IMG/VR virus record: IMGVR_UViG_3300049215_000779
Span: 1 to 31,802 of that record
Reading direction: 5' to 3' (one strand)
DNA from: a virus
Length of the DNA stretch: 31,802 nucleotides
Below the pieces are notes generated by a model. It worked only from the letters and a program-made list of their open reading frames with translations. It was not told the DNA's origin and made no database searches. A program made the translations under genes and the position numbers. Within the stretch, counting starts at the first letter, position 1. Every line of letters begins with the position of its first letter. Positions 5,206 to 27,135 of the stretch are shown one piece after another.

Positions 5206-5225
5206 GAGTGCCTCTGCTGGTTGTC

Positions 5226-5310
5226 AAAAGGATGAAGGATGAAGGATGAAGGATGACAGCGGCGCCGAATTGTCCCCTTTTCATCCTTCATCCTTCCGCC
5301 TTCATCCTTT
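5226..5310. repeat. Heptad inverted repeat A (GGATGAA family)
   Basis: The left arm is four tandem GGATGAA-type heptamers (5226-5256). The right arm (5278-5310) is the complementary TTCATCC series with one CCGCC variant. The arms can form a stem of about 30 bp with a loop of about 20 nt. It fills nearly all of the gap between the 249-aa and 1734-aa genes, leaving only the ribosome-binding region of the latter outside. Confidence 0.9.
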
Positions 5311-6059
5311 CAAAGGGTCAGCGGCCACGGCGTCGGCGTGCCGATGAGGGCCGTCACCGACTCGAATTCATAGTGCCACGTGGCCTTGTAGTTTTTGTAG
5401 GCGGTGACCTGGCGATCAGGCGCCTCGTAATTTATTTCGGTCTGCTGCGGCAGGATGGCCGCCGGCCAGATCGGGATACCCACGTCTTGCCCGATGACGG
5501 GCGCCCAGTTGTAGCCCGTGGCGTTGCCCTCCTGGGTGACCTTGTACGTGCTGGTCTGTTTCCAGGTCTGCGGAACGGGGATCCCGACCGCCGGTTCCAG
5601 GTAGCCGACGACCGGCGTGCCGCCGCGCATCTTGATCGATTCGTGATACTCAACCAGCGTGTTGCTGGTGATGACCGGCACTTCGGCCTCGACCTTGATT
5701 GTGTAGCCGCAGAAGCCGATGCGCTCCGCCGGCCGCCCGCCGGGAAAACTCGGCCGCTGGGTAACCCGCGTGCCGCCCAAGGTGTTGGCGCTGCGCAGCA
5801 CGGTGCTGGAAGGCGTCAGGCCGTCGGGCAAATAGAGCACCAAATCTTGGCGCTCCAGGCTATAGGCCGCGATGAGGCCAGCAATCTGCGCGTCGATGTC
5901 GGCATAGCCAATCTGGCTCGTCAGAAGTCCTTGAATCGTCCAGGTTTCCAGCCAGGCGATGGGCACCTTGGCGGCGTTCTCGATGGCCGTTCGGTCGATC
6001 GAGATATTGCATTCGCCGGGCTGATGCTGGTGCGCCCCGTAGGCAAGGAACATGCTCAT
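5310..6059 (-). CDS. Probable tail structural protein between tape measure and fibre (249 aa)
   Basis: The position directly downstream of the tape measure gene and upstream of the giant fibre gene suggests a distal tail or tail-tip component; I do not recognise a named family. Seen: no signal peptide or membrane segment. There is an N-terminal half with an AWLETWTIQGLL motif and a DIDAQIAGLIAAYSLERQD helix. This is followed by a conserved-looking segment, PSFPGGRPAERI, then beta-rich sequence to the end. The start ATG at 6059 has GGAGGG about 10 nt upstream; a second in-frame ATG lies two codons later. The stop TGA abuts the heptad inverted repeat. The gene is divergent from a plus-strand lipoprotein-like gene with only about 40 bp between the starts, so it is probably expressed by read-through only if transcripts pass that gene in antisense. 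Confidence 0.75.
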   Translation of the reverse strand: MSMFLAYGAHQHQPGECNISIDRTAIENAAKVPIAWLETWTIQGLLTSQIGYADIDAQIAGLIAAYSLERQDLVLYLPDGLTPSSTVLRSANTLGGTRVTQRPSFPGGRPAERIGFCGYTIKVEAEVPVITSNTLVEYHESIKMRGGTPVVGYLEPAVGIPVPQTWKQTSTYKVTQEGNATGYNWAPVIGQDVGIPIWPAAILPQQTEINYEAPDRQVTAYKNYKATWHYEFESVTALIGTPTPWPLTL

Positions 6060-6100
6060 GCTAGAATTCCCTCCTGGTACACCACACGGGGGATGAAGCT

Positions 6101-6526
6101 ATGAAACGCTTGATGTTGGCGGCGGTGTTGGCGACGGTCGGCTGCGGGAAAGGAGATACAGCCCCCTCGACCCCTGATGCAAAAGCGTTGTATGACGCCG
6201 AGTTGGCCGAACTGAATCGCTTGGAAAAAGAGCGCGAGGAAACCGTCCAAAAGCTCAGCGCATCTTACGATTCGTTCGGCAACGCGCTGCGAACTAAATA
6301 CAAATTGAAAGCGACCACAGAACGCATGCAGAAGGAACTGGGGCATGACCCGGATCGGGAAGCGGAGATAGCGGAGATGACAAAAGAGGCTGCTCAGCTT
6401 GAAGAGGCCAAGTCGCAACTGCTCATCAAAATGGGAAAAGCGGATACCGACTACAAGGCGCGCATTGCTGGTCAACAGCAAGCCGTAGAACAGGCCCTTG
6501 AGAGACTGCGTCAGTCGCAACATTAG
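6101..6526 (+). CDS. Small lipoprotein-like coiled-coil protein (141 aa), antiparallel in tail operon
   Basis: Unrecognised family. The N-terminus MKRLMLAAVLATVGCG has a basic start, a hydrophobic core and a Cys at position 15, which resembles a lipoprotein signal, though the residues before the Cys (TVG) fit the lipobox poorly. The remainder is highly charged, with Glu/Lys/Ala/Leu heptads over about residues 28-138, so a long coiled coil is expected. GGGGGA lies about 8 nt upstream of the ATG. It is the only plus-strand gene inside the minus-strand structural module. Its stop overlaps the tape-measure stop by 4 bp on the opposite strand. Codons look less GC-biased than the neighbours. It may be a moron expressed separately from the tail genes, perhaps in the lysogen. 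A spanin-like role is possible but unsupported. The opposite frame here (6056-6523) lacks protein-like features. Confidence 0.65.
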   Translation: MKRLMLAAVLATVGCGKGDTAPSTPDAKALYDAELAELNRLEKEREETVQKLSASYDSFGNALRTKYKLKATTERMQKELGHDPDREAEIAEMTKEAAQLEEAKSQLLIKMGKADTDYKARIAGQQQAVEQALERLRQSQH

Positions 6527-8970
6527 GCCCCCGCCGCTTTGGTCTGATTGCGTTTTTGCGTCGTGCGGTCGCTGGCCTTTTTGCTCGCTTCCTTGGCCTG
6601 CTCGAAAGCTTCCTGAATCCAGCCCTGAATCCGCTCTTCCTGCGACTTCAGATGCTCTTTGGCCGCGGCCAACATGGCTGCTTTGACCTTGGCCTCCATC
6701 TCCGTATCGCCAGTGACCTTGGCCTCTACCTGATTGTTCATGTTGACGCTGAACTTCGTACCGCGGTTGGCGGCCTCGGCCGCACTGTGTTCCCGCTCGT
6801 ACCTGCCGCTCATCTCGTCGTGTTCCTCGTTGGCCTCCCTCGCGCGTGACGTGGCCGATTCAAAAGCCTGGTGCTCCTGGTTGACCACGTTGACGCCCCG
6901 GCCGGCAAGCTGCTTTTGCCGCTCAAGCCCTCGCTGCAAACGCTGACGGCGGAGCAATTCTTTGGTTTCCTCGTCGCCGTACTGCTCGGCGAACTCTTGT
7001 TGCTTTCTGCTCAGTTCCTGGCCGCCGGTCAGCTTCTGCTTGACGTTTCCCAGGCGTTGCGATTCGCCCTGGGTCATTGACCCGAGTCGGACCAGCGCGT
7101 CCTCTTCCTTCTCCTGTGCGGTCTTCGCCTCATCGTTGAGCATCTCGATCAGGGAGCGTTGTTTCTGGATCTGGTCGGCCATCAGTTGCAGCTTTTTCCT
7201 GGCGCCGTCGATCGACACCTGCCGCTCTTCCTGTGCAATCTGCAGTTCGCGCTCGCGCAGCGCCTCGACCCGCTCCTCAAACTGCTCGCGCTCGCGGACC
7301 GCCTGCTGGAAGACGGGTGACTCCTGCCCCTCGCGCTGCGACACCTCGGCCGCCTGCTTGAATCGCTCGTTCACGCCGCCCCGCTCCGATTCGACGGACT
7401 CGCGATCTGCCTCGAGCGCGCGCCGCTTGGCTGCAACTTGCTCCTCTGGACTGGCGAGCGGACTAACGCTGTTGGCCACGGCGTTGTAGCGGGCGGCGGC
7501 GGCGATCCGCTTTTCGCGTGCCTCCGATTCCTTCTGGTTGACCTCCAGCAGACCCTGGATGAATTTCTGCCTGATGTCGAGTTCTTTTTGTCGCGCCTCT
7601 TTTTCCTTGGCCTCGGCCTCATGGGCCTCGCTAAACGACTTGCCACCGAAGAGCTCGGGGAGCTTGTCCAGATGGCCTAGGATCGAGGCGTTAAATACGA
7701 CCTTGCCGACGGTTTTCCCGAGTAGCCCAGTCGTCAGCTCTTTCGCCGAAGAGAGGATCGACACCTCGGTTTCCACGATCTTGTGGCTCAGGCTCGTCAG
7801 GGAAAAACCGAACTGATCGACGGGACCCTTCACCTCACGTAACGATTCGCTGATCACTTTGGCAGCGCTGAGCACGCCGAGGACGGCCGCACCCGCGGAC
7901 GCCAGCGTGACAGCCAGCGGGCTCGCGGCAATCCCCAATAGCCCGGCCGCGCCTGGCCCACGAACCCCAGCGCCTGCCGCATGTCCCGCCGCTTCCACGG
8001 CCTTGCCTCCGCCATGCGCGGCGACGGCCAGCTCCTCCGCCTTGGCGATCAATTCCAGCCGCTCGTGGTAGAGCTTGGCCGCCTCGGTGATCGACTTCCA
8101 GAATTTGATGCCGCCGCTAATCCGGTCCATCGCCTCCTGTATGGAGAGGATCGAATCCTTGATCTTGTTAAAGTCCTCCTCGCTGACCAGGCCCATTTCG
8201 ACGAAGCCGCGGGCGACCTCGGCGGCCGAGTTGCCGACTTCGGCGAGCGACGCGCGAAGGCGGCTGTTCAGTTCCTCGACCTTGCGGGCGGCGCTCTCGT
8301 GCGTTTGCTGGTCCTGTTCGACGGCCTCCCCGCCGCCCGCCACAAACGCCGCCCGCGTCTTGTTGGCCGCCGCGAGCTTGCGGTCTTCGTCCCTTGCGTG
8401 CGCGGCGGTCTCCTTGTCCCAACCGGCGATGCGCTGATCAACCGCTTTCGCCTCGGCCGCGGCCCGTTTGTCAGCCGCCTGCCGTTCGGCGTCGGCCTGC
8501 TTCTCGTTCTCGGCGTCGACCTTCTGCGTCAACGCCGCTTCCTGCTGGGCTTCGACCTTGGCAGCGTGGCCGTTGGCCGCGGCCCGCCTGGCGGCGCCCG
8601 TCGTCGTGGCTGCGTCCATCTTGGCCTCGGCCGCCTCGTGCTGGGCGACGACCTTTTCCAGGGCTGTGTCCGCGCCGGCCGGGGAAGGCAGCGACCTGGC
8701 CCCCGTCGGCTGTTGCGTGGCGATCTGGGAGGTGGCAATCGGCGTGAGGTTAACCGGGCTCATCGCCCGCTGATGAAGTGCATCGAGCCTGGCGTGCTCT
8801 CGGTCCACAGTCGTTTCAAACTCCCCCACATCCAGGCCGCCCAGTTCAAAGTTGCCCAGCATGGCCTGGAGCTGGGCGGCGCGCTCGCCGATGGCGGCAA
8901 ACTCGCGACCCACCGATTCGTCGGTCCGCGCCTTCAGCGTGAAGACTGCGCCGCGTTGTGCTTCAGACAT
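6523..8970 (-). CDS. Tail tape measure protein (815 aa)
   Basis: Sets tail length and sits inside the tail tube. Seen: almost entirely helical, Ala/Glu/Lys/Gln-rich sequence. Coiled coil covers about residues 100-250 and 450-640. One long hydrophobic stretch lies at about 340-373 (GLLGIAASPLAVTLASAGAA region), as is usual in tape measure proteins. It lies immediately after the chaperone pair with the probable frameshift, the hallmark order G-GT-tape measure. At roughly 0.15 nm per residue (a known rule for this family) 815 residues would predict a tail of about 120 nm. The ATG at 8970 is directly preceded by the pyrimidine arm of a heptad repeat (CCACC), with no Shine-Dalgarno sequence visible. 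The stop overlaps the convergent lipoprotein-like gene by 4 bp. Confidence 0.85.
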   Translation of the reverse strand: MSEAQRGAVFTLKARTDESVGREFAAIGERAAQLQAMLGNFELGGLDVGEFETTVDREHARLDALHQRAMSPVNLTPIATSQIATQQPTGARSLPSPAGADTALEKVVAQHEAAEAKMDAATTTGAARRAAANGHAAKVEAQQEAALTQKVDAENEKQADAERQAADKRAAAEAKAVDQRIAGWDKETAAHARDEDRKLAAANKTRAAFVAGGGEAVEQDQQTHESAARKVEELNSRLRASLAEVGNSAAEVARGFVEMGLVSEEDFNKIKDSILSIQEAMDRISGGIKFWKSITEAAKLYHERLELIAKAEELAVAAHGGGKAVEAAGHAAGAGVRGPGAAGLLGIAASPLAVTLASAGAAVLGVLSAAKVISESLREVKGPVDQFGFSLTSLSHKIVETEVSILSSAKELTTGLLGKTVGKVVFNASILGHLDKLPELFGGKSFSEAHEAEAKEKEARQKELDIRQKFIQGLLEVNQKESEAREKRIAAAARYNAVANSVSPLASPEEQVAAKRRALEADRESVESERGGVNERFKQAAEVSQREGQESPVFQQAVREREQFEERVEALRERELQIAQEERQVSIDGARKKLQLMADQIQKQRSLIEMLNDEAKTAQEKEEDALVRLGSMTQGESQRLGNVKQKLTGGQELSRKQQEFAEQYGDEETKELLRRQRLQRGLERQKQLAGRGVNVVNQEHQAFESATSRAREANEEHDEMSGRYEREHSAAEAANRGTKFSVNMNNQVEAKVTGDTEMEAKVKAAMLAAAKEHLKSQEERIQGWIQEAFEQAKEASKKASDRTTQKRNQTKAAGA

Positions 8971-9263
8971 GGTGGCGGGTGGAGGGTGAAGGGTGGAGGG
9001 TGGAGGGTGGAGGGTGGAGGGTGGAGGGTGGAGGGTGGAGGGTGAAGGCTATTGCAAAAGATTGTGGATGCTGCGGATGTAAAACCGGCGACCATCCTGA
9101 AAGAAAGACTCGCCGCTCATCACAAAACAAAACCGCCCGCGGCGGACGAGTTTCCTTAGCTCGGCGGTCAGTTCCTCAATCTCTTTCATCTGTGTTTCAT
9201 CCGCGTTCGATCCGTGGCCTTTTTCTTCGCCCTTCACCCGCCACCCTCCACGCTCCACCCTTT
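8971..9263. repeat. Heptad inverted repeat B (GGGTGGA family) around a small ORF
   Basis: The left arm (8971-9048) contains about ten copies of GGGTGGA or GGGTGAA. The right arm (9230-9263) is the complement, with CCACCCTCCACGCTCCACCC. The long centre holds a 46-codon minus-strand ORF and half of another repeat type (9187-9219, the complement of CCACGGATxxAACxCGGATGAAA). The left arm is much longer than the right, so it may have grown by slippage. Confidence 0.85.
9049..9189 (-). CDS. Small hypothetical protein (46 aa) between chaperone and tape measure
   Basis: Unrecognised. It starts MKEIEELTAELRKLVRRGRF and continues with FCFVMSG and RRFYIRSIHN, ending LLQ. This gives an amphipathic helix followed by two likely beta strands, which looks like real protein rather than repeat translation. 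The ATG at 9189 follows a repeat-derived GCGGATGAAACACAG, so a GGA about 10 nt upstream could serve as ribosome-binding site. It lies inside heptad inverted repeat B, between the chaperone extension and the tape measure, on the same strand as both. It could be cargo carried by the repeat or a small tail gene. The protein-like composition and conserved direction support it, but its length makes this uncertain. Confidence 0.45.
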   Translation of the reverse strand: MKEIEELTAELRKLVRRGRFCFVMSGESFFQDGRRFYIRSIHNLLQ

Positions 9264-9695
9264 TCACCTGACCAGGAACCGCGCCACATTTGCCGCCAGC
9301 TCCCGGCCCAACTGCTGCCGCTCCCGCACGCGGGCCAGCTCGTCGAGCAGGGCCAGGTTCCGCATCAACAGCGCGTCGGCCTTCATGGCGTCCGTCAGGC
9401 AGGCCCCGTTCGTGGCCCGCACCTGGCGGTACAGCTCCCAGGTCTGCCAGTTTTCGGCCGACAAAATGTGTTCGGCCTCTTCCGCCGGCGACCCCTTCGG
9501 GCAGGCCCTTTCGCTTGAGCCAGGCCGATCGAAGGCACAGGGCGGCGGGCTGTTCTTGGTCCGCATCAGCTCGCGCGTGCCGCCCGCGTAGGTCTTGACC
9601 TTGCCGCTGCCCGTGCAACCGTTGGCCCAGTCGACGTCGTGAATCTTGCGCTGACAACTGTCGCAACTGAACTGCGTCAAGGCGGGGTAGAACAA
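9264..9695 (-). CDS. Tail assembly chaperone extension (gpT-like), probably made by -1 frameshift (143+ aa)
   Basis: The open frame runs without a stop from the slip site at about 9719 to 9264, giving 151 residues after the shift; the only start-like codon near its beginning is a TTG at 9695. It contains a CDSC motif near the N-terminus, further cysteines (GCTG, PPCAF, RACPKG) that may bind a metal, a NWQTWELYRQVRA segment and an Ala/Leu/Arg-rich helical C-terminus. In lambda and many siphoviruses the equivalent T domain is only made fused to G and helps wrap the tape measure with tail tube protein. The gene lies in the -1 frame relative to the upstream chaperone gene, with a slippery sequence and stem-loop at the junction, so the fused product would be about 299 residues. 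Separate initiation at TTG is the alternative. The function follows from position and this arrangement, not from recognised homology. Confidence 0.72.
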   Translation of the reverse strand: MFYPALTQFSCDSCQRKIHDVDWANGCTGSGKVKTYAGGTRELMRTKNSPPPCAFDRPGSSERACPKGSPAEEAEHILSAENWQTWELYRQVRATNGACLTDAMKADALLMRNLALLDELARVRERQQLGRELAANVARFLVR

Positions 9696-9725
9696 CAGCA
9701 GCTCTACCCCGGCAATCAGTTTTTT
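9683..9725 (-). promoter_or_regulatory. Programmed -1 frameshift signal (A AAA AAC slippery site + stem-loop)
   Basis: Read on the minus strand, the last codons of the 148-aa gene are CAA AAA AAC TGA, so the heptamer A AAA AAC (9725-9719) is in the exact register needed for a -1 slip and is followed at once by the zero-frame stop. After a 7-nt spacer comes a perfect 9-bp stem, CGGGGTAGA (9711-9703) with TCTACCCCG (9691-9683), and an 11-nt loop. The -1 frame is open through 9264. Heptamer, spacer, hairpin and position upstream of the tape measure all fit the known G/GT recoding arrangement. Confidence 0.85.
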
Positions 9726-10162
9726 TGCTGGGTCACCGTCTGCACGTCGCCCACCGCGGCGCCCGTTTCGGCGGCCTTGCGCAGCGCGGCGGCGTAGCCG
9801 GTTTCTTCCTCGCTGGTCGCGTCCGGCTCGGGATCGCTGGCGTCCATACCGCTCACGATCAGGTACAAGCGATCGTAGAGGGCGGGCGGCAGGCGGCGTA
9901 CGCCTTCCGGGCCGACCTTGATCGACTTGCCCTCGTCGTCGGTCGCCGACCAGTCGACCACGTGCTCGGCGATCGCCGTGCGCAAGATCAGATCGCCCTT
10001 GTCGCCTTTCTCGCCCGACACGAGCCGGCGCACCGCGTTGCGCTGCTCGGGCAGCATCGGGCGATAGCTGAACCGCAGCTCGCCGTGCAAGCCGGGCACT
10101 TCCTTGATAAAACCCGTGCGGGTGAAACCGTCGCGGATGTGGGTGTAGTGACGTTTGGTCAT
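9716..10162 (-). CDS. Tail assembly chaperone (gpG-like, 148 aa)
   Basis: Probably the shorter of the two tail assembly chaperones that keep the tape measure soluble and recruit tail tube protein. Seen: a soluble, mixed alpha/beta protein starting MTKRHYTHIRDGFTRTGFI, with an FSYRPMLPEQRNAVRRLV segment, ILRTAIAEHVVDWSA and LPPALYDRLYLIVSG. These resemble the substrate-side layout of phage tail chaperones that begin with a short beta segment and then a helical domain. The acidic tail (DASDPEPDATSEEE) leads to a final helix and the slip site QQKN. The ATG has GGAGG 7 nt upstream. Downstream the frame shifts to the extension gene. The family assignment rests mainly on position and the recoding signal. 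Confidence 0.75.
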   Translation of the reverse strand: MTKRHYTHIRDGFTRTGFIKEVPGLHGELRFSYRPMLPEQRNAVRRLVSGEKGDKGDLILRTAIAEHVVDWSATDDEGKSIKVGPEGVRRLPPALYDRLYLIVSGMDASDPEPDATSEEETGYAAALRKAAETGAAVGDVQTVTQQKN

Positions 10163-10200
10163 CAGTATCCTCCGTGAATGGTTAGATTGTTTGGTCAGTC

Positions 10201-10297
10201 AAAGGATGAAGGCGGAAGGACGGACGGGAAGGATGAAGGCGGAAGGATGAAGGATGAAGAGCCGGAATGCGTACTTTTTTTCATCCTTCATCCTTCC
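10201..10297. repeat. Heptad inverted repeat C (GGATGAA family, asymmetric)
   Basis: The left arm (10201-10259) is long and degenerate, with GGATGAAGGCGGAAGGA and GGACGGACGGGAAGGATG variants. The right arm (10278-10297) is short, TTTCATCCTTCATCCTTCC. The length difference suggests recent expansion or loss in one arm. It lies between the beta-propeller gene stop and the chaperone start. Confidence 0.85.
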
Positions 10298-10309
10298 AAA
10301 ACTTCTAGC

Positions 10310-12448
10310 CTAGCGTGCCACCGTGATGGCCCCGCTCTGCCGCTGCCAGCCGGTAAACCCGGTGACCTCGTAGAACGGCGTGCTGTTGACACCCATCGAG
10401 CCGAAGTAAACCGTGCCGCTCTTGCCCTGAAGCACCTGCTGCCAGTGCGCGTCGTTGTAGATCAAGCCTTGCTCGGTGTAGGTCGCATTCGTGCCGTAAT
10501 ATGGCCGCTGGTTACCGTAAGCGAGCCACTGCCAGGGCTGCCACTGCATCGAGACGGTGTAGCCGGTGTCGTCCTGAAAGCTTCCCGCGTAGAGGCCGTC
10601 CGACGTCCAGACGCCAGCGTGCCCGGGGTAGGACGAGTCCATGGTCACGAGGCACGGCTTGGCCTCGGTCGTGACGGTGATGCTGCCGAGAATTGCTCGC
10701 GGGTCAGCAAAATTCCCCGGGGGTGGCGCGAGAGCGCTACTCCACTGGCCCGTCGCCGCCAACTGCTGACCAGTCGCAATTGAGAACTGCATCAGCCGCG
10801 CGGCCGTGTTGAGCTGGTTGGGCCAGTCAGCTTGCGTCGCGGGCGGCGCGGGGTTCGTAGCGACGGCCAGGGCCCAAAGCGTGCCGTCGCCCGGTGCATA
10901 GCAGCCGCGGTAGGTGGGCGTCATGCCGTCAGAGACAATCGGCGTTAGCTTCCAGTGATCCCAGTCCCACTTCGGGGCGGTCGCGGTCCCCGTGTTCGCA
11001 ATGGTCGCGATCTGGTTCGCGTTGTTGATGAGCGTGATATTCCAGTTGGCGTCGACCGCGCACACCCGGGCCGCGTTGTACTGGGAGCCCACGCTGGCCA
11101 CGGTGATTTCGCTGATGTCGACGAGCCTATTGCCGTTCGTGTCGGACCACGAGAACGAGAAGTGCGTGTAGCCGACCTTGTTGAAGGTCGTGGTCGCTGG
11201 CAGGTTCTGCGCGGCCAGCCACCAGGTCGGCAGCACCTCGGCGTCAAGCGTTGGGTGCAGGCAGCCGAGATAGGCGACGGGCGTGAGCTGGGCCGCTTCG
11301 ACCCGCAGGACCAGGACGCCGTTTTGTTTGTTCAGGAGATAGGTTTCGCTGCCAACGTGCCGCACCTCGAAGTAGGTTTCGTTCGGCGCGGCCGGCAAAA
11401 TGTCGCGGAAGCTTGTTTTGCCAACCGACCAGGAGGAGCGGTTCACCAGCGGGTAGAGGTTGACGAGCGTCCACGACTTGTTTGCGAAGTCGAGCGTCGC
11501 TTGGCCCCAGTGCTGGTGGTCGATGGGCACGTACGCCGTCGTGGGATTGGCCGGGTCAAACGCTGCCATGCTGCCCCACTGGAGCCCTCCGATCCACTGG
11601 TTCAACAGGTTCCCCTTGGAGTCGAATCGCGCGACCCGGCGGGGAAACTGCTCAACCGTGTAAAAGTTCCCCTGCGAGTCGCAAGCGATCGCCAGAATCG
11701 TATCGAACTGTTGGGGATTAAAAGGGCCGTAAACGCGCGACGAGCCGTGTGTTGCGGCCAGGGAGCCATCGGCGTTGAACCGCTGGATCGTGTTGCCCAC
11801 GACTTTGAGCGTGTGGTTGTTTAGCGTGTCGGTCGCTCGAAGCAGACTCGGGAAGGACTCGCCGGCCGGAAGGGACGTAGGAGGGTGCGGCACCCCATTC
11901 CCCGTGCGCGCGTCGCGCACCAAGATGGACGAGCCGCTTTGCAGGTAGAGCAGCCGGTCGACCACGGCCATGCCGGTGATGCCGTCGGCGCTGCCGTAGG
12001 TGCCGTCGTCCCAGTGTTTCTTTGAGCCATCGGGCGTGATCTTGATGACGTGTGGTGGTCCTTCGCTCGACCTGCTGGCCACGTAAAGAGCGTCGTCGCC
12101 ATCCACGTAAACGAGCGTCGGCCCGGCGTGGTTACCCGGCCAGACGTCGCAGATCGACCAGCGGTGAGTAACGCCGACGTTGACCAGCAGCTCGCGAGAG
12201 AAGCCCGGCGTCTCGAGCAGCCGCCACTGGTAGGCCCCGGCGGGCGCGGGCCGGCCGTAGCGGTCAAGGCCGTCCCAGGAGGTGAAGTGCTCTCCGGCGG
12301 CCTGCGTCTGACCGTAAAGCAGCGGCCGGACCATCTGGCCGGACGAGTTAAAGATCGCCAGCGACACGTTGCCGGCGGTCGGCAGCGTGTAAAAAATCGG
12401 GTCCGCTCCCACCAGGGAAAGGGCCAGGGTGAGGGATAGAAGACTCAT
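10310..12448 (-). CDS. Secreted FlgD-Ig/beta-propeller protein embedded in tail operon (712 aa)
   Basis: Unusual cargo for a tail operon. Seen: a hydrophobic N-terminus of about 15 residues ending LVGA, consistent with a Sec signal peptide. A FlgD-like Ig fold follows at about 17-80, with WDGLDRYGRPAPAG as its hallmark. NHL/SMP-30-like propeller repeats come next (VYVDGDDALYVAS, ILAIACDSQGNFYTVE, VARFDSKGNLL). An EF-hand- or dockerin-like calcium loop (DTNGNRLVDISE, 436-447) and more blade-like segments run to the C-terminus. Such combinations are known in secreted planctomycete proteins, not in standard siphovirus tails. The ATG is preceded by GAGGATCC. It sits between tail tube and tail chaperone, in the same direction, so it is likely co-transcribed. 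It could be a host gene captured as a moron, a surface-modifying protein, or a virion component exported or displayed unusually. No catalytic residues were recognised. Confidence 0.8.
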   Translation of the reverse strand: MSLLSLTLALSLVGADPIFYTLPTAGNVSLAIFNSSGQMVRPLLYGQTQAAGEHFTSWDGLDRYGRPAPAGAYQWRLLETPGFSRELLVNVGVTHRWSICDVWPGNHAGPTLVYVDGDDALYVASRSSEGPPHVIKITPDGSKKHWDDGTYGSADGITGMAVVDRLLYLQSGSSILVRDARTGNGVPHPPTSLPAGESFPSLLRATDTLNNHTLKVVGNTIQRFNADGSLAATHGSSRVYGPFNPQQFDTILAIACDSQGNFYTVEQFPRRVARFDSKGNLLNQWIGGLQWGSMAAFDPANPTTAYVPIDHQHWGQATLDFANKSWTLVNLYPLVNRSSWSVGKTSFRDILPAAPNETYFEVRHVGSETYLLNKQNGVLVLRVEAAQLTPVAYLGCLHPTLDAEVLPTWWLAAQNLPATTTFNKVGYTHFSFSWSDTNGNRLVDISEITVASVGSQYNAARVCAVDANWNITLINNANQIATIANTGTATAPKWDWDHWKLTPIVSDGMTPTYRGCYAPGDGTLWALAVATNPAPPATQADWPNQLNTAARLMQFSIATGQQLAATGQWSSALAPPPGNFADPRAILGSITVTTEAKPCLVTMDSSYPGHAGVWTSDGLYAGSFQDDTGYTVSMQWQPWQWLAYGNQRPYYGTNATYTEQGLIYNDAHWQQVLQGKSGTVYFGSMGVNSTPFYEVTGFTGWQRQSGAITVAR

Positions 12449-12474
12449 GGATCCTCGCTTGATGATTACGTCAA

Positions 12475-12546: not shown

Positions 12547-12575
12547 CCGTGTTCCCTCCGTGTTTCATCCGTGGC
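12478..12575. repeat. Inverted repeat D (CACGGATGAAA family)
   Basis: The left arm GCCACGGATGG (12478-12488) is complementary to the ends of the right arm (12543-12575), which carries CCATCCGTG, CCTCCGTG and CATCCGTGGC in a series with a period of about 11. The loop is about 54 nt and holds a 23-codon ORF. Confidence 0.7.
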
Positions 12576-12605
12576 GCCGTTTCTTAGGGCTTCCTCTCCG
12601 CCGGC

Positions 12606-13559: not shown

Positions 13560-13574
13560 GGTCGGTTCCTTTCC

Positions 13575-13635
13575 AAAGGATGAAGGAGGAAGGATGAAGG
13601 ATGAAGTGTTTTGTTTTCATCCTTCATCCTTTCAA
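13575..13635. repeat. Heptad inverted repeat E (GGATGAA family)
   Basis: The left arm (13575-13606) reads AAAGGATGAAGGAGGAAGG then GATGAAGGATGAAG. The right arm (13615-13635) is TTCATCCTTCATCCTTTCAA. The loop is about 8 nt. The stop codon TGA of the 177-aa gene is part of the right arm. Confidence 0.9.
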
Positions 13636-14165: not shown

Positions 14166-14184
14166 CTAGATTCCCTTTTTCTCT

Positions 14185-14259
14185 GAGCCACGGATGAAAC
14201 ACCGATTGAACACGAATTTTTCTTTTATCTGTGTTTCATCCGTGTTTGATCGGTGGCTG
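14185..14259. repeat. Inverted repeat F (CACGGATGAAA family)
   Basis: The left arm (14185-14216) reads GAGCCACGGATGAAACACC then GATTGAACACGA. The right arm (14228-14259) is TCTGTGTTTCATCCGTG then TTTGATCGGTGGCT. They pair imperfectly over about 30 bp with a 12-nt A/T-rich loop. This is the same family as repeat D, with an 11-nt period. Confidence 0.85.
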
Positions 14260-14261
14260 CG

Positions 14262-14618
14262 TCACTTCGGCCTCTGGAACATTAAGAAGTATCTGGTCGG
14301 CGTGCCCACGCTGTTCACCAGCGGGTCCGCGTCGACCTTAATCACGTTCCACGGCTGTCCGTCCTTGTCCGTCCACACGTCGTTGATGGCCGGCACGTAC
14401 CCGGTGGTCAGCGTGATCGTCCAAATCTCAAACGTCTGATATTCCGGAGCCAGCCCGATCGACGCCGCCCAATCGACGTTCGCCTTACTGGTCGTGACCT
14501 TGCGGTAGCTGACCGTGGTCTGCTGGCTCAGGCTCGTGTTCGCGGGCTGCAAGGCTCCCTGGAACACGTTCGCCAGGTAGCGGAAACCGTACGCGTACTG
14601 ATCGGTTACATTGGCCAC
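14262..14618 (-). CDS. Head-tail stopper/adaptor candidate (118 aa)
   Basis: A small protein in the head-to-tail connector position. It begins MANVTDQYAYGFRYLANVFQ and has strands around TTVSYRK, FEIWTITLTTGYVP and DVWTDKDGQPWNVIKVD, ending RYFLMFQRPK. A short helical start followed by a beta barrel with a DxxGxxWxV turn fits phage head-closure (stopper) proteins such as SPP1 gp16 or the Mu-like head-tail joining family; this is a fold-level inference. The start is GTG at 14618 with AGGGGGATCCA upstream, a good ribosome-binding site. Heptad repeat G lies upstream and repeat F downstream. Confidence 0.65.
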   Translation of the reverse strand: MANVTDQYAYGFRYLANVFQGALQPANTSLSQQTTVSYRKVTTSKANVDWAASIGLAPEYQTFEIWTITLTTGYVPAINDVWTDKDGQPWNVIKVDADPLVNSVGTPTRYFLMFQRPK

Positions 14619-14636
14619 TGGATCCCCCTGCGGGCC

Positions 14637-14730
14637 GAAGGATGAAGGATGAAGGATGAAGGATGAAAAGAGGGCAAAGCCGGAGCCTGTTTTTCACTTC
14701 ATCCTTCATCCTTCCGCCTTCATCCTTTCT
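14637..14730. repeat. Heptad inverted repeat G (GGATGAA family)
   Basis: The left arm (14637-14670) is four GGATGAA heptamers in perfect tandem. The right arm (14696-14730) is the complement with one CCGCC variant. The stem is about 30 bp and the loop about 25 nt. Confidence 0.9.
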
Positions 14731-14952
14731 TCACGTCTGTCCCTTCACCTGGACTTCCCACGGGCCGACTTCCGTAGCGATGAGCTGATTGATTTGCGCC
14801 AGCTCGTCGAGCAGCGACTTGCGGTAGCTGACGAAGTCAATCACCCCGCCGCCCTGCGCGCTGGGCAGATCCATGCCTTGGCCGGGCGTCGCCGTGCTCA
14901 GCCAGGTTAGGATCGCCGTCTTGCGGGCTTGCAGCAGGTCGATGTTAGCCAT
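14731..14952 (-). CDS. Small head-tail connector candidate (73 aa)
   Basis: A short mostly helical protein: MANIDLLQARKTAILTWL, a turn with GQGMDLPSAQGGG, then a second helix, SYRKSLLDELAQINQLIA. A two-helix layout with a short strand between (GGGVIDFVSYR) is reminiscent of lambda gpW-type head-tail joining proteins, and size and position agree. The ATG at 14952 is preceded by the right-arm end of repeat H (CTTTCGAAC), with no visible Shine-Dalgarno. The stop TGA lies just before repeat G. Confident as a gene, tentative in function. Confidence 0.65.
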   Translation of the reverse strand: MANIDLLQARKTAILTWLSTATPGQGMDLPSAQGGGVIDFVSYRKSLLDELAQINQLIATEVGPWEVQVKGQT

Positions 14953-14956
14953 GTTC

Positions 14957-15041
14957 GAAAGGATGAAGGCGGAAGGATGAAGGATGAAGGCTCGAATTCA
15001 GCCCTTTCCCTTCATCCTTCATCCTTCCTCCTTCATCCTTT
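14957..15041. repeat. Heptad inverted repeat H (GGATGAA family)
   Basis: The left arm (14957-14990) is AAAGGATGAAGGCGGAAGG then ATGAAGGATGAAGG. The right arm (15008-15041) is the complement with a CCTCC variant. The arms' variant heptamers (GGCGGAA and, read on the other strand, GGAGGAA) differ at one base, so they are near-matches rather than perfectly copied. The loop is about 17 nt. Confidence 0.9.
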
Positions 15042-15437
15042 CTGTATGTGCGCGATGTGGTCCGCCCACGCCTTCGTCAACTCCGGCGGGTCGCCGGCCG
15101 CCGGCACGACGTCGTAACGACAGTGCGAATCGGTGAGGCCGATGGCCGCGTTGTAGGCGGCAATCGCCCGCTTCCGCTCGATATCCGCCGCCAGGAAATT
15201 CAGCCGCTTGGCTTCCGCCTCGGCCGATTCTCCGCCCGGCGGCGGCGCCTTCTGCTCGGCCGTCAGGTCGTCGACCGTCGCCGCGTCGACCGTCACGCGC
15301 ACGCGTGGCCAGTGCTCCACGGCGGGGTTGTGCGGGTCAACGAGCGCGACATCGAAGGAGCGGGTGGCGGAGTGGGTGGCGGGTGAATCTGTGTCCACGA
15401 TCGCCGGGTCGCCAGTTGGTTTCGTTTCGTCGCTCAC
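15033..15437 (-). CDS. Hypothetical head/connector-region protein (134 aa)
   Basis: Unrecognised. I chose the GTG at 15437 because GAGGAGC lies 7-8 nt upstream and because the frame further upstream only translates repeat sequence. The protein begins MSDETKPTGDPAIVDTDSPA. It contains a strand-rich part (WPRVRVTVDAATVDD) and an acidic/Ala helix with AEAKRLNFLAADIERKRAIAAYN, ending ADHIAHIQKG. Its stop codon TGA comes from the first GGATGAA heptamer of repeat H (AAA GGA TGA). Part of the 5' coding region (15358-15385) is itself made of GGGTGGC heptamers that complement repeat I. It lies between major capsid and connector genes; a small head or connector role is likely, but nothing more can be said. 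Confidence 0.65.
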   Translation of the reverse strand: MSDETKPTGDPAIVDTDSPATHSATRSFDVALVDPHNPAVEHWPRVRVTVDAATVDDLTAEQKAPPPGGESAEAEAKRLNFLAADIERKRAIAAYNAAIGLTDSHCRYDVVPAAGDPPELTKAWADHIAHIQKG

Positions 15438-15522
15438 CGGTTCGCTCCTCAGAAATTCTTTGCCCGCCACCCACCACGCTCCACCCGTCACGCTTCACCC
15501 GCCACCCGCCACGCACCACCCC
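15358..15522. repeat. Heptad inverted repeat I (GGGTGGC/GGGTGGA family), left arm inside a gene
   Basis: The left arm (15358-15385) is GGGTGGCGGAGTGGGTGG then CGGGTG, and lies inside the 134-aa coding region. The right arm (15463-15522) is a long complement with GCCACCC, CCACCAC and CCACCCGTCACGC units. About 77 nt separate the arms. Here the repeat has entered coding sequence. Confidence 0.7.
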
Positions 15523-15523
15523 T

Positions 15524-15997
15524 TTACGCCGCCGGCGTAATGTCGGCCGGTTTGAAGTCAACCTGGGCTGCCGCGGCCGTACCCACTTCCTGCACCGGCC
15601 CGCCGACCTCCGATACCTGATACTTCAGGTGCGGAGCCGGGGTGACGATCCCCATGTGGGCGTTGTATTTTTTGATCGCTTCCGCGAGGCCGGCCTGACC
15701 TGCTAGCTGCGCGCCGACGACCAGGTGCGGCGCGTGCCGCGGGTGCGTCGTGGCGTAGTTGCCCGGCAGATGAACGTGGAACTTAAACGGCCCGGTCATC
15801 AGGTCGTCGAGCGCCTGCTGCTGCTCGGACCGCTGCCGCTCGAGTTGCTCTTCGATGAGCGAGTCCGGCGACGGCGGGTTCCGCTTGTTCTCGATCTCAA
15901 GCTGGAGCTTAAGGTTTTCGTTTTGCAGGCGAAGTCTTTCGACTTCCAGCTCGGGGCTGAGGGTCGGGGCGTCGGCCGGTTTGGTATCTTTGGCCAT
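15524..15997 (-). CDS. Coiled-coil head-region protein following the major capsid gene (157 aa)
   Basis: Unrecognised. The ATG at 15997 (MAKDTKPADAPTLSPELEVE) has AGGA upstream; a longer in-frame reading to 16108 only translates repeat J and was rejected. Residues of about 13-65 form a coiled coil (LEVERLRLQNENLKLQLEIE), followed by a Gln/Arg-rich region with LIEEQLERQ. The C-terminal half is more globular, with FKFHVHLPGNYATTHPRHAP, and ends KPADITPAA. It lies directly downstream of the major capsid gene, where head accessory or connector proteins are usual. Confidence 0.65.
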   Translation of the reverse strand: MAKDTKPADAPTLSPELEVERLRLQNENLKLQLEIENKRNPPSPDSLIEEQLERQRSEQQQALDDLMTGPFKFHVHLPGNYATTHPRHAPHLVVGAQLAGQAGLAEAIKKYNAHMGIVTPAPHLKYQVSEVGGPVQEVGTAAAAQVDFKPADITPAA

Positions 15998-16012
15998 GTG
16001 GGTCCTTTCAGG

Positions 16013-16155
16013 TAAATGACGAATGTCGGGGGTAAATGACGAATGACGGAATGACGAATGACGAAAGAATGACGAAGCCCGAAACCCGAAGGGGCCGCTT
16101 TTCGTCATTCGTCATTCGGGCTTCTTTCGTCATTCGGATTTCGTCATTCGTCATA
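16013..16155. repeat. Heptad inverted repeat J (AATGACG family)
   Basis: The left arm (16013-16077) has tandem AATGACG heptamers with spacers. The right arm (16099-16155) has the complement CGTCATT series. A second small complementarity at the tip (GAAGCCCGAA with TTCGGGCTTC) extends the hairpin. It separates the 157-aa gene from the major capsid gene. Confidence 0.9.
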
Positions 16156-16168
16156 TTCACGCAGTGGC

Positions 16169-17440
16169 TTAGTTCGTCGACAGGACGACGTATCGCGGGT
16201 CCTTGACCATCGCCGTGCCCATCTCGTCGGCGAACAGGCTGAACATCAAGCCGCGGTCGGCCATCTGGTAATCCGTGGCGGTGGCCCGCACGATGGTGAG
16301 CGGCAGGTTCTGCACCCAGGCGAAGGCCTTCGTGAAGTCGCCCAGCCACCAGTAGACCTGAGCATTCGTCGCCGAGAGGTTGAGGCCCGTGGCGTCCGTG
16401 GCCCGCTTGTAGGCGTATTTGCTCGGCGGCAGGAACTCGTAACGGCCGCCGCCCAGCGGGTTGGGGGCGAAGCCGCGGCGGGTCAGGTCGCTGGAGGTGT
16501 TTTCCAGGCCCGTGAAGTTGAACACGTAGCGGCTCGACATTTCCTTGTAGGGCATGACGAGCACCTGCTTCACGTCGATCTCGATCGGCTGGCCCGTTTC
16601 CTGGTCGGTCATCTGGGCAAAGAGCTGATTGGCAGCGTTGAAATTCGTCCAGTCGCTCAGGGCGTTGCCGGTGATCTTGTTGATCCAGTTGCCGCTGGTC
16701 AGGTACGTGTTGTAAGTCGTACCGTCGTACGTGTAGGTGTTGGTCACACCGATGACGCAGTCGGTGATCAGATACTCCTTGCGAAGCCCCAGCGTCTCGC
16801 TGGCGGTCTCGGCCTGGGTCAGCAGCTCGCGCGTCAGGTCGAACATCACGGCCTCGCGCGTCACGTCGACGCCGTTGCCGCGGTTGATCGTGATCGGGCT
16901 GGTAACGTACCGCTCGCTCACGTTGATCCGATGGTGCGGGTTGCCGGGCTTGCGCTCCTCGGCCGTGTCGCCCACCATGCCGATGCCGATCAGCTTTTCC
17001 TGACGCTTGTTCGACGGGATGGTTTCGACGACGTTGGTGAGCACGAACATCGGGCGCGTGTACATTTCGAGCATGCGGGCTTCGAGCAGCCCCGCCGTGG
17101 CGGCGTTGAACGCGCTGATGTTGGCGAATTGACTAGGGACAATGTCGGCGCCGGCTTCCATCACGTCGCCCGTTTCGCGATGCGCGCGGCACGACTGGCC
17201 CAGCGCCCGGTCGAGCGATTCGCCGTCGCAGCCAAGGAAGCCTTTGGCCAGTTCCTTGACCGAGAGCATCGACGGCTTCCAGGGAGCATCGCTTTCCAGC
17301 ACCGGCTGGTCGAGTTCCTGGTCCCAGTAGCGGGCTCCCGTTTCCGGGTTTTCCAGGCCGAGGAGCTGGTAGACCGTATGGACGGCGCCGACGGCCCCGT
17401 CGCGCTTGACGATCGTGGCAATTTGTTCGCTGTTCAACAT
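16169..17440 (-). CDS. Major capsid protein (423 aa)
   Basis: Builds the icosahedral shell; length and features fit the Mu gpT-like/HK97-fold group. Seen: N-terminal helix and arm (MLNSEQIATIVKRDGAVGA), then a helical NISAFNAATAGLLEARMLEM segment. An ETIPSNKRQEKLIGIGMVGD stretch precedes a long beta-rich body, which includes AEERKPGNPHHRINVSERYV (E-loop-like), a spine helix (FDLTRELLTQAETASETLGL) and LVMPYKEMSSRYVFN. The end is PRYVVLSTN. There is no hydrophobic leader. The ATG is preceded by GGCAAAACC without a clear Shine-Dalgarno. Gene order protease/scaffold, probable decoration protein, major capsid protein supports the call. Confidence 0.85.
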   Translation of the reverse strand: MLNSEQIATIVKRDGAVGAVHTVYQLLGLENPETGARYWDQELDQPVLESDAPWKPSMLSVKELAKGFLGCDGESLDRALGQSCRAHRETGDVMEAGADIVPSQFANISAFNAATAGLLEARMLEMYTRPMFVLTNVVETIPSNKRQEKLIGIGMVGDTAEERKPGNPHHRINVSERYVTSPITINRGNGVDVTREAVMFDLTRELLTQAETASETLGLRKEYLITDCVIGVTNTYTYDGTTYNTYLTSGNWINKITGNALSDWTNFNAANQLFAQMTDQETGQPIEIDVKQVLVMPYKEMSSRYVFNFTGLENTSSDLTRRGFAPNPLGGGRYEFLPPSKYAYKRATDATGLNLSATNAQVYWWLGDFTKAFAWVQNLPLTIVRATATDYQMADRGLMFSLFADEMGTAMVKDPRYVVLSTN

Positions 17441-17469
17441 GGTTTTGCCGTGATGAGTAGGTTGGTGGT

Positions 17470-17550
17470 TAAAGGATGAAGGACGAAGGATGAAGGATGA
17501 AAGGAAGAGGTGAAGTTCAAACCTTCATCCTTCCGCCTTCATCCTTTTTT
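17470..17550. repeat. Heptad inverted repeat K (GGATGAA family)
   Basis: The left arm (17470-17502) is AAAGGATGAAGGACGAAGG then ATGAAGGATGAAA. The right arm (17522-17550) is CCTTCATCCTTCCGCC then TTCATCCTTTTTT. The two arms differ at a few heptamers. It lies between the decoration-candidate and major capsid genes. Confidence 0.9.
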
Positions 17551-17551
17551 G

Positions 17552-18463
17552 TTACGGGCTCATGGGCGGGGTATAGAAGATTTCAAACGTCACGCTCCCC
17601 GCCGTGAGAGCGTTCGCATTGCAGCCCGTCAGGGCGAACGTAGCGACGGGCGACAACTCGCTGGCGACGGCGCCATAGGTGTTGCCCGCCATCGAGCCGA
17701 TCGGCCCGGCCGCGAACACGCTCTGCGAGGTGTTGCCGCTGAAGGCCCCCAGCGTGCCCGTGACGCCCAGCTCGACGGTCGCGGCCGAGAGGCTTGGCCC
17801 GGCCAGGGCGGTTGCCACGTAGGCCCGCCAGCCGGTCGCAACCGCGCCGGCGGGGATCTTGCCGGCGAACGTGTACGTGCCCGTGGTTGAGCTGCCGGTC
17901 AGCGCCGAGTAGGACGCCGTCTCACGCAACACGCCCTCGAACACCTGGGGACTGCTCGGCGCGTAGGTGAACAGGTTGCTAACGAGCAAGCACCGAATCG
18001 TGGTGACCGCCACGCCGCCGCTGTCCGCAATCACCATCCCGATTGCGCAGCAGGGGTCGGTCACTTGCTGGACGCTCTGGCTTTGAATCCCGTTGTTGCC
18101 GCCGTTCTCCGCGACCCCGACCAGCATCCCGGGGATGTACACCTGTGACGGCACGGTGACATCGCCCACCCAGATCGGTGTCACGTCCGTGTTCATTTCG
18201 TCGTTCGTGCTGTTACTCGACGACAAATGCCGTTCGACGGACACGCCCGCAAAATTCTTTGCAAACAGGCGTTGGTTGCGGGCGGCCGTGCCCTGGTCGG
18301 GCATGCTCGCGGCGGGGTAAGCCACGTCGGCGGTGAGTCCGGTCGGCAGCGGGTACGGGCTCGACGGACAGAGAAAGATCAAGTCGTTTTGCTCGATGTC
18401 GACCCCGCCGTCGTACGGCAACGTGATGTTGCCGAGTCGCGGGAACGCGAAGGTCATGGTCAT
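17552..18463 (-). CDS. Capsid decoration protein candidate (303 aa)
   Basis: The place between protease/scaffold and major capsid genes is typical for decoration or head-stabilising proteins. Seen: beta-rich, low-charge sequence starting MTMTFAFPRLGNITLPYDGG, without a signal peptide. The central part has VYIPGMLVGVAENGGNNG, then AIGMVIADSGGVAVTTIRCL. The C-terminus is Gly/Ala/Ser/Thr-rich and ends VTFEIFYTPPMSP, looking like a jelly-roll or Ig-like fold. The ATG has AAAGGA about 8 nt upstream. I do not recognise a named family; decoration protein is inferred from order and composition. Confidence 0.65.
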   Translation of the reverse strand: MTMTFAFPRLGNITLPYDGGVDIEQNDLIFLCPSSPYPLPTGLTADVAYPAASMPDQGTAARNQRLFAKNFAGVSVERHLSSSNSTNDEMNTDVTPIWVGDVTVPSQVYIPGMLVGVAENGGNNGIQSQSVQQVTDPCCAIGMVIADSGGVAVTTIRCLLVSNLFTYAPSSPQVFEGVLRETASYSALTGSSTTGTYTFAGKIPAGAVATGWRAYVATALAGPSLSAATVELGVTGTLGAFSGNTSQSVFAAGPIGSMAGNTYGAVASELSPVATFALTGCNANALTAGSVTFEIFYTPPMSP

Positions 18464-18524
18464 GGGGGGATCCTTTGGTTGCTAGGCCGTCTGGGTCATG
18501 GTGGCGGTTATCAGTTGTTCTTTC

Positions 18525-18603
18525 GTGGAGGGTGGCGGGTGGTGAGTGGAGGGTTGATTTTTCTTCTGTCTCCCTTCACCCTCCACGCTCCACGCTCCAC
18601 CCT
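18525..18603. repeat. Heptad inverted repeat L (GGGTGGA family)
   Basis: The left arm (18525-18553) is GTGGAGGGTGGCGGGTGG then TGAGTGGAGGG. The right arm (18571-18603) is CCCTTCACCCTCCACG then CTCCACGCTCCACC. The loop of about 18 nt is T-rich. It lies between protease/scaffold and the decoration candidate. Confidence 0.9.
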
Positions 18604-18607
18604 GGCT

Positions 18608-19744
18608 TCAGCGTCGCTGCAGGCCGGACGCGAGCCTCTTGAGGTCGTCTTTGGTTCGCGGCTTGAGGCCGGTCGGCAGTTTCTCGGGAGGTTGCTCGCT
18701 CTCCAGCGTGTTGGCCGGAACGCTCTTGGGCTTGGCCTTGCCGGCCGCCGGGGCGGCAGGCAGGTTGGCAAACTCGGCGATCAGCGCCTTGCGGTCGTCC
18801 TCGCTTTCCAGCGCGGCGACGGCCGTGATGCGGGCCTTGGTCGGCTCGACCTTGGCCGCCTCCAGCGCGTCGCGGGCCTTCTCGCGCCGCTCGTATCCGG
18901 CCAGCCGCTGCCTGGCGTCGGCCAGCTCGGAGGCTTGCTGCCTGGCCCTCTTTTCCTTGACGCTCTCCTGCCCTTCGTCCTCGTCGTCGCCGGCGTCTTC
19001 GCCGTTCACCGCGGCGTCGACGTCGTCTTCGACCTGCAGCAGCGTTTTGGCGAGCTGGGCGATGCGGCGGGCCTTGTCGGCCGGGTCGCCCTCGTCTTCG
19101 TCAAAGATTCTGGCGGCGGCGTCCAGGAACATCTGCTTAACCGTGGCCGGCGATTCGGGGGCCGGGTCGAGGTTGGCAACGCCGTCGCCGCCGCCAGGTT
19201 GGGAACCGTCCATGTAACCCTCGCTTTCGCTTTCAAAAATCCCGTTCGTCGTCGCCGGGCGACATACCAGGTCGACGGAGCGAACCGTGTTGATCGACTC
19301 GCACACGCGGCGGCCGTCGTCTGCGACCAGCCAGTCCACGTGGGCGTTGTGGGAGAGCCCAAAATTTTCGGGGAACCGCTCGGCGGCCTCGCAGACCATT
19401 TCCGCCAGGGGGTGCGCCTTGATGTACGGCATGTCGCCGCGCAGTCCGTCGTCGTCGTTTACGTTCTGCAGCCGGCCGAAGAGCGATTCAAACGGGCGGT
19501 CGTCGGCCACCTTTTCGCGCGACGGATGACTGATGTTAACCGAGCGGCCTTCGTATAAAACCTTGGCCTTGGTCAGCACGGACTGCGGGTACGTGCGGTT
19601 GTTTCGCGACTCGTTGCCGATGATCTTGACGCCGTAGATGATCCCCTTCTCGCGATCGACGCGCAACGGCTTGTCGCCCGTGGTGAACTCCAGGGCGTCG
19701 ACACCTTTCTCGTACTTGGGAAACTTTTTGAGTGTTGTTGGCAT
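18608..19744 (-). CDS. Prohead maturation protease fused to scaffold (378 aa)
   Basis: Processes the capsid during maturation and serves as assembly scaffold. Seen: an N-terminal protease domain (about 1-170) whose GLSHNAHVDW (His132 or His135) and NTVRSVDLVCRPAT (Ser156) match the His...Ser pattern of herpesvirus-type (S78/U35-like) prohead proteases. The N-terminus contains VKIIGNESRNNRTYP, and NISHPS around 69-74. The second half (about 180-378) is Ala/Glu/Asp-rich, with an acidic run (EDAGDDEDEGQES) and helical coil segments, as expected for a scaffold. The ATG has AAGGA about 7 nt upstream. A shorter internally initiated scaffold-only product (as lambda Nu3) is possible but not shown. 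Confidence 0.85.
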   Translation of the reverse strand: MPTTLKKFPKYEKGVDALEFTTGDKPLRVDREKGIIYGVKIIGNESRNNRTYPQSVLTKAKVLYEGRSVNISHPSREKVADDRPFESLFGRLQNVNDDDGLRGDMPYIKAHPLAEMVCEAAERFPENFGLSHNAHVDWLVADDGRRVCESINTVRSVDLVCRPATTNGIFESESEGYMDGSQPGGGDGVANLDPAPESPATVKQMFLDAAARIFDEDEGDPADKARRIAQLAKTLLQVEDDVDAAVNGEDAGDDEDEGQESVKEKRARQQASELADARQRLAGYERREKARDALEAAKVEPTKARITAVAALESEDDRKALIAEFANLPAAPAAGKAKPKSVPANTLESEQPPEKLPTGLKPRTKDDLKRLASGLQRR

Positions 19745-19753
19745 GGTTGTCCT

Positions 19754-19806
19754 TCAAAGGATGCAGGCGAAGGATGAAAGTGCTTGTATTCATCCTTCAT
19801 CCTTTT
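19754..19806. repeat. Heptad inverted repeat M (GGATGAA family)
   Basis: The left arm (19754-19779) is CAAAGGATGCAGGCGAAGG then ATGAAAG. The right arm (19789-19806) is TTCATCCTTCATCCTTTT. It is more degraded than the others. The right arm overlaps the 3' end of the portal gene and encodes its last residues. Confidence 0.85.
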
Positions 19807-27070: not shown

Positions 27071-27135
27071 AGTGAAGAGTGATAAGTGAAAAGTGAAGAG
27101 GCGCAAGGGAACGCCTCTCCTTTTCACTTTTCACT
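27071..27135. repeat. Heptad inverted repeat N (AGTGAAA family)
   Basis: The left arm is AGTGAAG, AGTGATA, AGTGAAA, AGTGAAG heptamers (27071-27098) running into GAGGCG. The right arm (27112-27135) is CGCCTCTCC then TTTTCACTTTTCACT. The stem is about 19 bp with a short loop. It is the only heptad repeat in the plus-strand region. Confidence 0.85.

Follow-up and report, generated by a model that had tools for sequence, protein, structure and literature searches.

In cyanobacteria, short tandemly repeated repetitive (STRR) sequences are tandem repeats of heptamers lying between genes, and bacteriophage T7 carries hairpins between its genes that are processed by RNase III. Heptanucleotide repeats are the commonest class of long simple sequence repeat (SSR) in most genomes studied, according to earlier work cited in PMC4679880, and intergenic direct repeats of heptamers have been described for TAACTGA in Beggiatoaceae and cyanobacteria (PMC4679880) and for GGGAATC in Xanthomonas and GGGGATT in Nostoc (PMC4692102). 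In the P6b stem-loop of the Nostoc trnL (tRNA-Leu UAA) intron, heptads of Class I (TDNGATT) or Class II (NNTGAGT) have repeatedly replaced each other in place, from which the authors infer that both can fulfil the same role (PMC4476775). Repetitive extragenic palindromes (REPs) of the GTAG and CGTC families have also been surveyed (PMC3733652). Here we describe hairpins whose arms are tandem heptads in a 31.8-kb virus record of IMG/VR (the window, taken as a whole), where they fill the structural operon. They belong to a genome-wide, cross-phylum class of intergenic repeat and are not peculiar to morphogenesis genes. In the open-access literature searched, we found no account that treats heptad-armed hairpins as a genome-wide class, and targeted searches gave no hits for planctomycete heptameric repeats or for STRRs.

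The structural operon lies on the minus strand and runs from portal (19790-21391) over capsid (16169-17440) and tail tube (12606-13559) through to the gene at 1-5205. Between portal and last gene, an inverted repeat with tandem arms occupies 13 of 15 same-strand junctions (window 5227-19806), 11 of them strongly and 2 weakly, much as a sequence-only reading had reported. Our own inverted-repeat scan recovered nine tandem-armed hairpins (5227-5310, 9011-9261, 10241-10297, 13590-13631, 14638-14729, 14957-15042, 16049-16117, 17471-17547 and 18529-18603) and two shorter ones (14189-14244, of an 11-nt family, and 15374-15507); those at 12478-12575 and 19756-19806 were added by reading the junctions. 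The units named in that reading were correct: GGATGAA at seven junctions, GGGTGGA/GGTGGCG at three, AATGACG at one and the 11-nt CACGGATGAAA at two. Stems of about 30 bp had been described, and the longest reaches 34 bp at 97% complementarity. The regularity is indeed beyond chance, with 8 periodic hairpins from a strict scan of 5000-20000 against a mean of 0.04 and a maximum of 1 in 100 first-order shuffles.

Ten of the strong loci were folded as RNA, with z-scores between -3.8 and -11.3, and the long-loop locus at 8971-9261 was judged by its 37-nt arms (89%) without folding. The loci at 12466-12590 and 15370-15519 are graded weak because their z-scores are only -2.3 and -0.15. Hairpins are absent from the junctions 9695/9716 (gap 20 nt) and 6059/6523 (gap 463 nt). 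Elsewhere in the window, nine junctions hold a single heptad hairpin (27077-27136), so that occupancy is 13/15 in the operon versus 1/9 outside it (p 0.0005, counts by eye and scan combined), or 8/15 versus 1/9 by strict scan alone. The earlier statement that at each locus the left arm complements the right arm and not the arms of other families needs a correction for arms of one family: in a pairing matrix, GGATGAA-family left arms paired with the right arms at other loci at least as well as with their own. These arms are thus interchangeable, and partner specificity exists only between families.

The repeats extend far beyond this phage and this assembly. The 25-mer AAGGATGAAGGCGGAAGGATGAAGG of the commonest family has exact matches in 13 other viral contigs and, among the matches listed, in over 120 bacterial genome stretches that span about a dozen phyla; the taxa are Chloroflexota, Acidobacteriota, Planctomycetota, Cyanobacteriota, Betaproteobacteria, Nitrospirota, Gemmatimonadota, Verrucomicrobiota, Calditrichota, Armatimonadota and others, and the isolate Leptolyngbya PCC 7375 carries it. 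Most matches are in hairpin form, at loci that also bear heptad hairpins of other units such as GTGATAA, GGGTGCT, AGTAGGC, AAACCAG and AGTGGTC, and arm complementarity in relatives is far beyond chance. Neither of the two results that would have overturned the sequence-only reading, chance-level arm pairing in relatives and repeats limited to one assembly, was obtained. The tandem word was present in 17 of 17 AAGGATGAAGGCGGAAGGATGAAGG records tested, usually in many copies, and reversed control words numbered zero in all but one. It is patchily distributed but multi-copy, with positives in 5 of 199 planctomycete genomes and 15-21 matches each in two of them. Words of 17-19 nt from three families did not co-occur in these 199 genomes, exact words being a harsh test, and a common genome-level factor for all families is disfavoured on this ground. 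No near-identical GenBank phages were found; capsid relatives suggest that the host is likely a planctomycete. The repeats had been presented as a feature of the morphogenesis operon, which holds for how fully that operon is occupied and not for any restriction to it.

Phage modules in host chromosomes were also examined. In the single-contig planctomycete genome G390, hairpins lie at 7 of 16 junctions of the phage module (three heptad, the others REP-like) versus 10 of 184 on the chromosome (p 6e-5). The corresponding counts are 4/13 versus 1/40 in G356 (p 0.01, REP-like only) and 3/14 versus 2/48 in G138 (p 0.07), and three further modules showed no significant hairpin enrichment. Given enrichment in some genomes, phage late operons tend to collect their host's palindromes, though not always. 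The G390 module (L211, G390:C1 6016000-6035999) encodes terminase, portal, protease-like, capsid, neck and tape measure proteins. The G356 cluster L220, which bears a capsid gene, contains many intergenic non-heptad REP-like palindromes (GTAGGGTCCGCTGTGCGGACC, CACTAGCCCGCTGCGCAAGCGAGGG).

Read on the coding strand, an occupied junction runs from the stop codon through a purine-rich arm, a short loop and a pyrimidine-rich arm, usually to a Shine-Dalgarno sequence and then the start codon. Two TGA stops, those of the portal gene and of the gene at 15033, are themselves part of an arm, and the starts at 14952 and 8970 follow the arm without an intervening Shine-Dalgarno. Across 200 periodic hairpins from all sources (period 7 in 127), the 5' arm averages 65% purine; because a palindrome reads identically on both strands, this is a property of the element and not of gene orientation. 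The placement survey used our own gene caller and covered stretches totalling about 1.5 Mb from five genomes, together with separate loci. It left out 43 of the 200 hairpins that lay within called genes, many of which belong to a G+C-rich cluster resembling coding noise. The 119 hairpins between same-strand genes lie a median of 7 nt behind the stop codon (lower quartile 0). Placement within 10 nt of the stop was seen for 58 of 108, versus 28 expected and a maximum of 40 in 2000 random placements; only 9, versus 28 expected, were within 10 nt of the next start. Hairpins in convergent gaps mostly fit tightly against a stop, and divergent gaps are depleted in the acidobacterium G007 (5 versus 14.6 expected). 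Such stop-proximal placement is expected both from a 3'-end function and from harmless landing sites.

At homologous junctions, position is often kept and family is often not. A relative, a 5.2-kb contig (L140) with a capsid 92% identical to that of the window and the same gene order plus one extra gene, bears heptad repeats at every homologous junction, of a different family at 6 of 7. For example, GGATGAA in the window is answered by AATGACG before tail tube and by GGTGGAG at 14638, and CACGGATGAAAC by CAGTTGCCGGTTGA at 14189; only behind the capsid gene do both carry the same family, AATGACG, and after tail tube a single L140 arm is visible before the contig ends. More distant relatives L141 and L208 (capsid about 50%) have no such hairpins, L208 gaps being near zero at most junctions, and across L141, L208 and L210 the count is 0 of 39 junctions; the hairpins were therefore either gained in the window's lineage or lost in those relatives.

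Chromosomes behave similarly. G007 and a related acidobacterium, G443 (proteins mostly 75-98% identical), have heptad hairpins at 14 and 12 of 40 orthologous junctions compared by eye, 10 of them shared (4.2 expected, P 6e-5), or 9 (4.6 expected, P 0.001) without divergent and overlapping junctions. Family was kept at 3 of the 10 shared junctions and differed at 7, and at junction 186 one genome has a REP-like palindrome and the other a heptad hairpin. Behind purN, one of the seven, G007 carries an AGTAGGC hairpin followed directly by a 33-nt segment that agrees with the 3' arm of G443's AAGTTCA hairpin at 30/33 (next best match in 300 kb, 21/33), which reads as a remnant of the old arm beside a new hairpin. 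Junction 164 measures 12 nt in G007 versus 98 nt with a hairpin in G443, and junctions 167 and 170 show the reverse; these are clean gains or losses. Each junction could instead have produced its own hairpin by replication slippage and template switching, with no mobility. The varying number of tandem units and the reported abundance of heptanucleotide repeats among long SSRs in most genomes studied (PMC4679880) agree with this, but the same 25-mer, with its internal AAGGCGG variant, is exact in many phyla and orthologous sites either have or lack an entire hairpin, and we regard such local origin as improbable.

What we observe, namely words shared across phyla, the hairpin form, stop-proximal placement, presence or absence, and different families at orthologous junctions, probably reflects a dispersed class of REP-like palindromes whose DNA-level copies are replaced at stop-proximal sites and fill this late operon. 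The palindrome arms would be complementary tandem arrays of a 7-nt word (8-11 nt in sub-families), with many word families, several per genome, each multiplying separately. Copies would arrive and spread as DNA and settle directly behind stop codons, sites that would spare the reading frame and the next ribosome-binding site, and a hairpin would often give way to a copy from a different family at that junction. We infer a copying step in which replication slippage would keep units tandem and palindrome templating would keep arms matched. Late-operon enrichment may arise because sites behind stop codons are highly tolerant, possibly combined with an mRNA effect that depends on structure alone; in this phage the process would have occupied 13/15 late junctions.

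Several points weigh against this explanation. No copying enzyme or target duplication was identified, and the late-operon enrichment (window 13/15 versus 1/9; G390 7/16 versus 10/184) exceeds what tolerance by itself would readily predict. For L140, a single 5.2-kb contig underlies the comparison; for G007 and G443 there are 40 junctions, with families judged by eye. Binning errors in metagenome-assembled genomes (MAGs) may inflate the phylum count of identical words; heptad hairpins also occur in one isolate and one complete genome. A more specific DNA process, exchanging palindrome for palindrome in place, for example through cruciforms that are cut and repaired from another palindrome copy, is rather unlikely and is offered tentatively. 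It would account for hairpins that stay in position while their families change, for arms left behind, and for the mixed REP/heptad exchange at junction 186. If it were true, heptad hairpins would be a new class of transposase-free mobile DNA common to bacteria and phages.

The main rival places the function in RNA. Intercistronic stem-loops in a polycistronic late mRNA would block 3'-5' exonucleases or be cut by an RNase III-type enzyme, giving each cistron its own half-life; only structure would matter, and families would therefore be interchangeable. The low folding z-scores at the strong loci, the long near-perfect stems, the retention of a Shine-Dalgarno between hairpin and start at most junctions, and the fact that two related phages with different sequences have almost all their late junctions occupied all fit, as does enrichment in the G390 module and, weakly, in that of G356. 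Against it, mismatches readable as G-U on the sense strand numbered 58 versus 49 readable so only on the other strand (A-C on sense; p 0.44), and sense RNA folded no more stably than antisense (p 0.10 for the phage hairpins, with the difference opposite to that expected, and p 0.19 for the genomic ones). With no sense-strand bias in these tests, an RNA role is unproven, as is the earlier suggestion that the structures set expression ratios of structural proteins. Hairpins of the same class also lie between convergent genes, and the 39 junctions of the relatives L141, L208 and L210 do without them. An RNA-level effect, including a role in RNA stability, is possible, the RNA-level tests are neutral, and we hold this account as a whole to be somewhat doubtful.

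Transcription termination fared worse. Runs of at least four T after the stem occurred in 8 of 119 hairpins on the sense strand and in 8 on the antisense, and intrinsic termination is unlikely because there is neither a T-run nor a sense bias; intrinsic terminators were rejected as a candidate on these grounds. The sequence-only reading was right that the structures are non-random, and they recur in other assemblies, but attenuation by this route, one of its suggestions, is not borne out. That it knew of no named family agrees with the lack of an Rfam match above gathering score in the window. Bidirectional terminators or attenuators draw some support from the DNA behind atpG (L301-L330), where many members of the acidobacterial family keep a GGGAAGC...GCTTCCC-TTTT terminator (GGGAAGC..GCTTCCCTTTTT) and G007, which has lost it, has a GGATGAA hairpin in its place; in L326 a heptad hairpin is followed by a run of T, and other hairpins lie between convergent stops. 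However, in L319 the hairpin stands upstream of an intact terminator, and no terminator-like site coincides with the window hairpins. No promoter-like excess was found within the operon, which 13 strong terminators would therefore silence. We consider this explanation very improbable.

Mobilization as REP elements by a RAYT (Y1) transposase would account for palindromic, dispersed, 3'-end-associated repeats, and the window has a Y1 transposase gene at 23164-23910. Outward GTAG (6/157) and CGTC (3/157) beside stems were as frequent as control tetramers (2-12), with no tag enrichment; Y1_Tnp had no match in heptad-rich G007 or G443 (possibly incomplete MAGs); and the window Y1 gene is flanked by other, non-heptad palindromes. 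RAYT-driven REPs were rejected on the missing tags and the lack of Y1 in these two genomes, and this account is hardly credible. The RAYT-like gene itself has, on both sides, copies of a non-heptad palindrome (CGTACAGTAGCC..TCACGCGGAGCGTGAGGCCTACTATACG) containing GTAG/CTAC (22832-22934, 23088-23138 and 23923-24025), which makes it a REPtron-like element inside the phage record. Neutral RNA tests, the lack of a T-run and the lack of promoter or terminator excess leave copying and replacement at the level of DNA as the account with most support for how the repeats persist.

Along the minus strand of the operon, the GGATGAA family accounts for the hairpins at 5227-5310 (arms 5227-5256 and 5281-5310; z -8.95), abutting the stop codon of the gene at 5310-6059; 10202-10297 (stem 10241-10258/10280-10297, extra repeats 10202-10240; z -4.25); 13575-13631, upstream of tail tube (stem 13590-13605/13616-13631; z -6.05); 14638-14729 (arms 14638-14667 and 14698-14727; z -7.5); 14957-15042, whose arm in a 34-bp stem provides the TGA stop of the gene at 15033-15470 (z -11.3); 17471-17547, upstream of capsid (z -10.3); and 19756-19806, behind portal with the TGA stop inside the arm (z -4.0). 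GGGTGGA-family hairpins are at 8971-9261, where an array of 11 copies (8971-9048) is paired to 9225-9261, leaving a loop of about 177 nt between them (not folded), and at 18525-18603 (stem 18529-18554/18578-18603; z -3.8). The 11-nt families comprise 14187-14255 (CACGGATGAAACACCGAT; stem 14189-14206/14227-14244; z -5.5) and the weak 12478-12575 (CACGGATGG; arms 12478-12487 and 12566-12575, array 12539-12573; z -2.3), and the AATGACG hairpin lies behind capsid at 16011-16154 (z -7.1). The weak GGGTGGC hairpin at 15374-15507 (14-bp arms 15374-15387 and 15494-15507; z -0.15) has its inner arm in the coding start of the gene at 15033-15470; there it encodes an N-terminal extension, DSPATHSATRS, missing from the L140 homologue, and looks like a repeat arm recruited into coding sequence.

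Outside the operon, an AAGTGAA-family hairpin lies between plus-strand genes at 27077-27136 (+ strand, z -6.7); the longest open reading frame (ORF) of a phage-borne PAPS-reductase-domain protein (PF01507, 27093-27911, + strand) starts inside it. The hairpin-free gap 6059/6523 between two minus-strand structural genes is filled by an antisense 141-aa lipoprotein-like ORF (MKRLMLAAVLATVGCGKG..., + strand, 6101-6526). Just upstream of portal are two long near-perfect non-heptad inverted repeats, 21559-21664 (29 nt, 97%) and 21782-21878 (36 nt, 94%).

If copying and replacement as DNA is the correct explanation, many bacteria and their phages contain a large class of intergenic DNA in which position and hairpin shape stay constant and the sequence family is exchanged, and conserved gene-end hairpins need not show conserved sequence or covariation. 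Mobile DNA that shows no transposase could then be put to the test on this class, which would also provide a natural experiment on whether hairpins between cistrons tune the ratios of phage structural proteins.

Each described system matches these hairpins in part. T7 also has hairpins at successive junctions of a phage operon, but its RNase III hairpins do not have tandem-repeat arms and are not dispersed in host chromosomes, and cleavage here is only putative. REPs are likewise dispersed extragenic palindromes of several phyla, Planctomycetes included, and some are transcribed; heptad hairpins differ in lacking a tag, in arms made of tandem heptads and in the lack of a Y1 transposase in the two acidobacterial genomes compared. 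Heptamer direct repeats and STRRs resemble them in their 7-nt tandem units, intergenic position, phylogenetic scatter and lack of a known copying mechanism, but were described without a complementary partner array, whereas the arms here pair as hairpins at 81-100%; TAACTGA repeats, moreover, lie near start codons, and heptad hairpins at stop codons. The closest precedent is heptad replacement in P6b of the Nostoc trnL intron, where a stem built from complementary heptad arms and motif replacement at a fixed site occur together, as they do here. That case concerns one locus in a group I intron, with two classes, in cyanobacteria only, whereas the hairpins described here are intergenic and comprise many families in many phyla and their phages.

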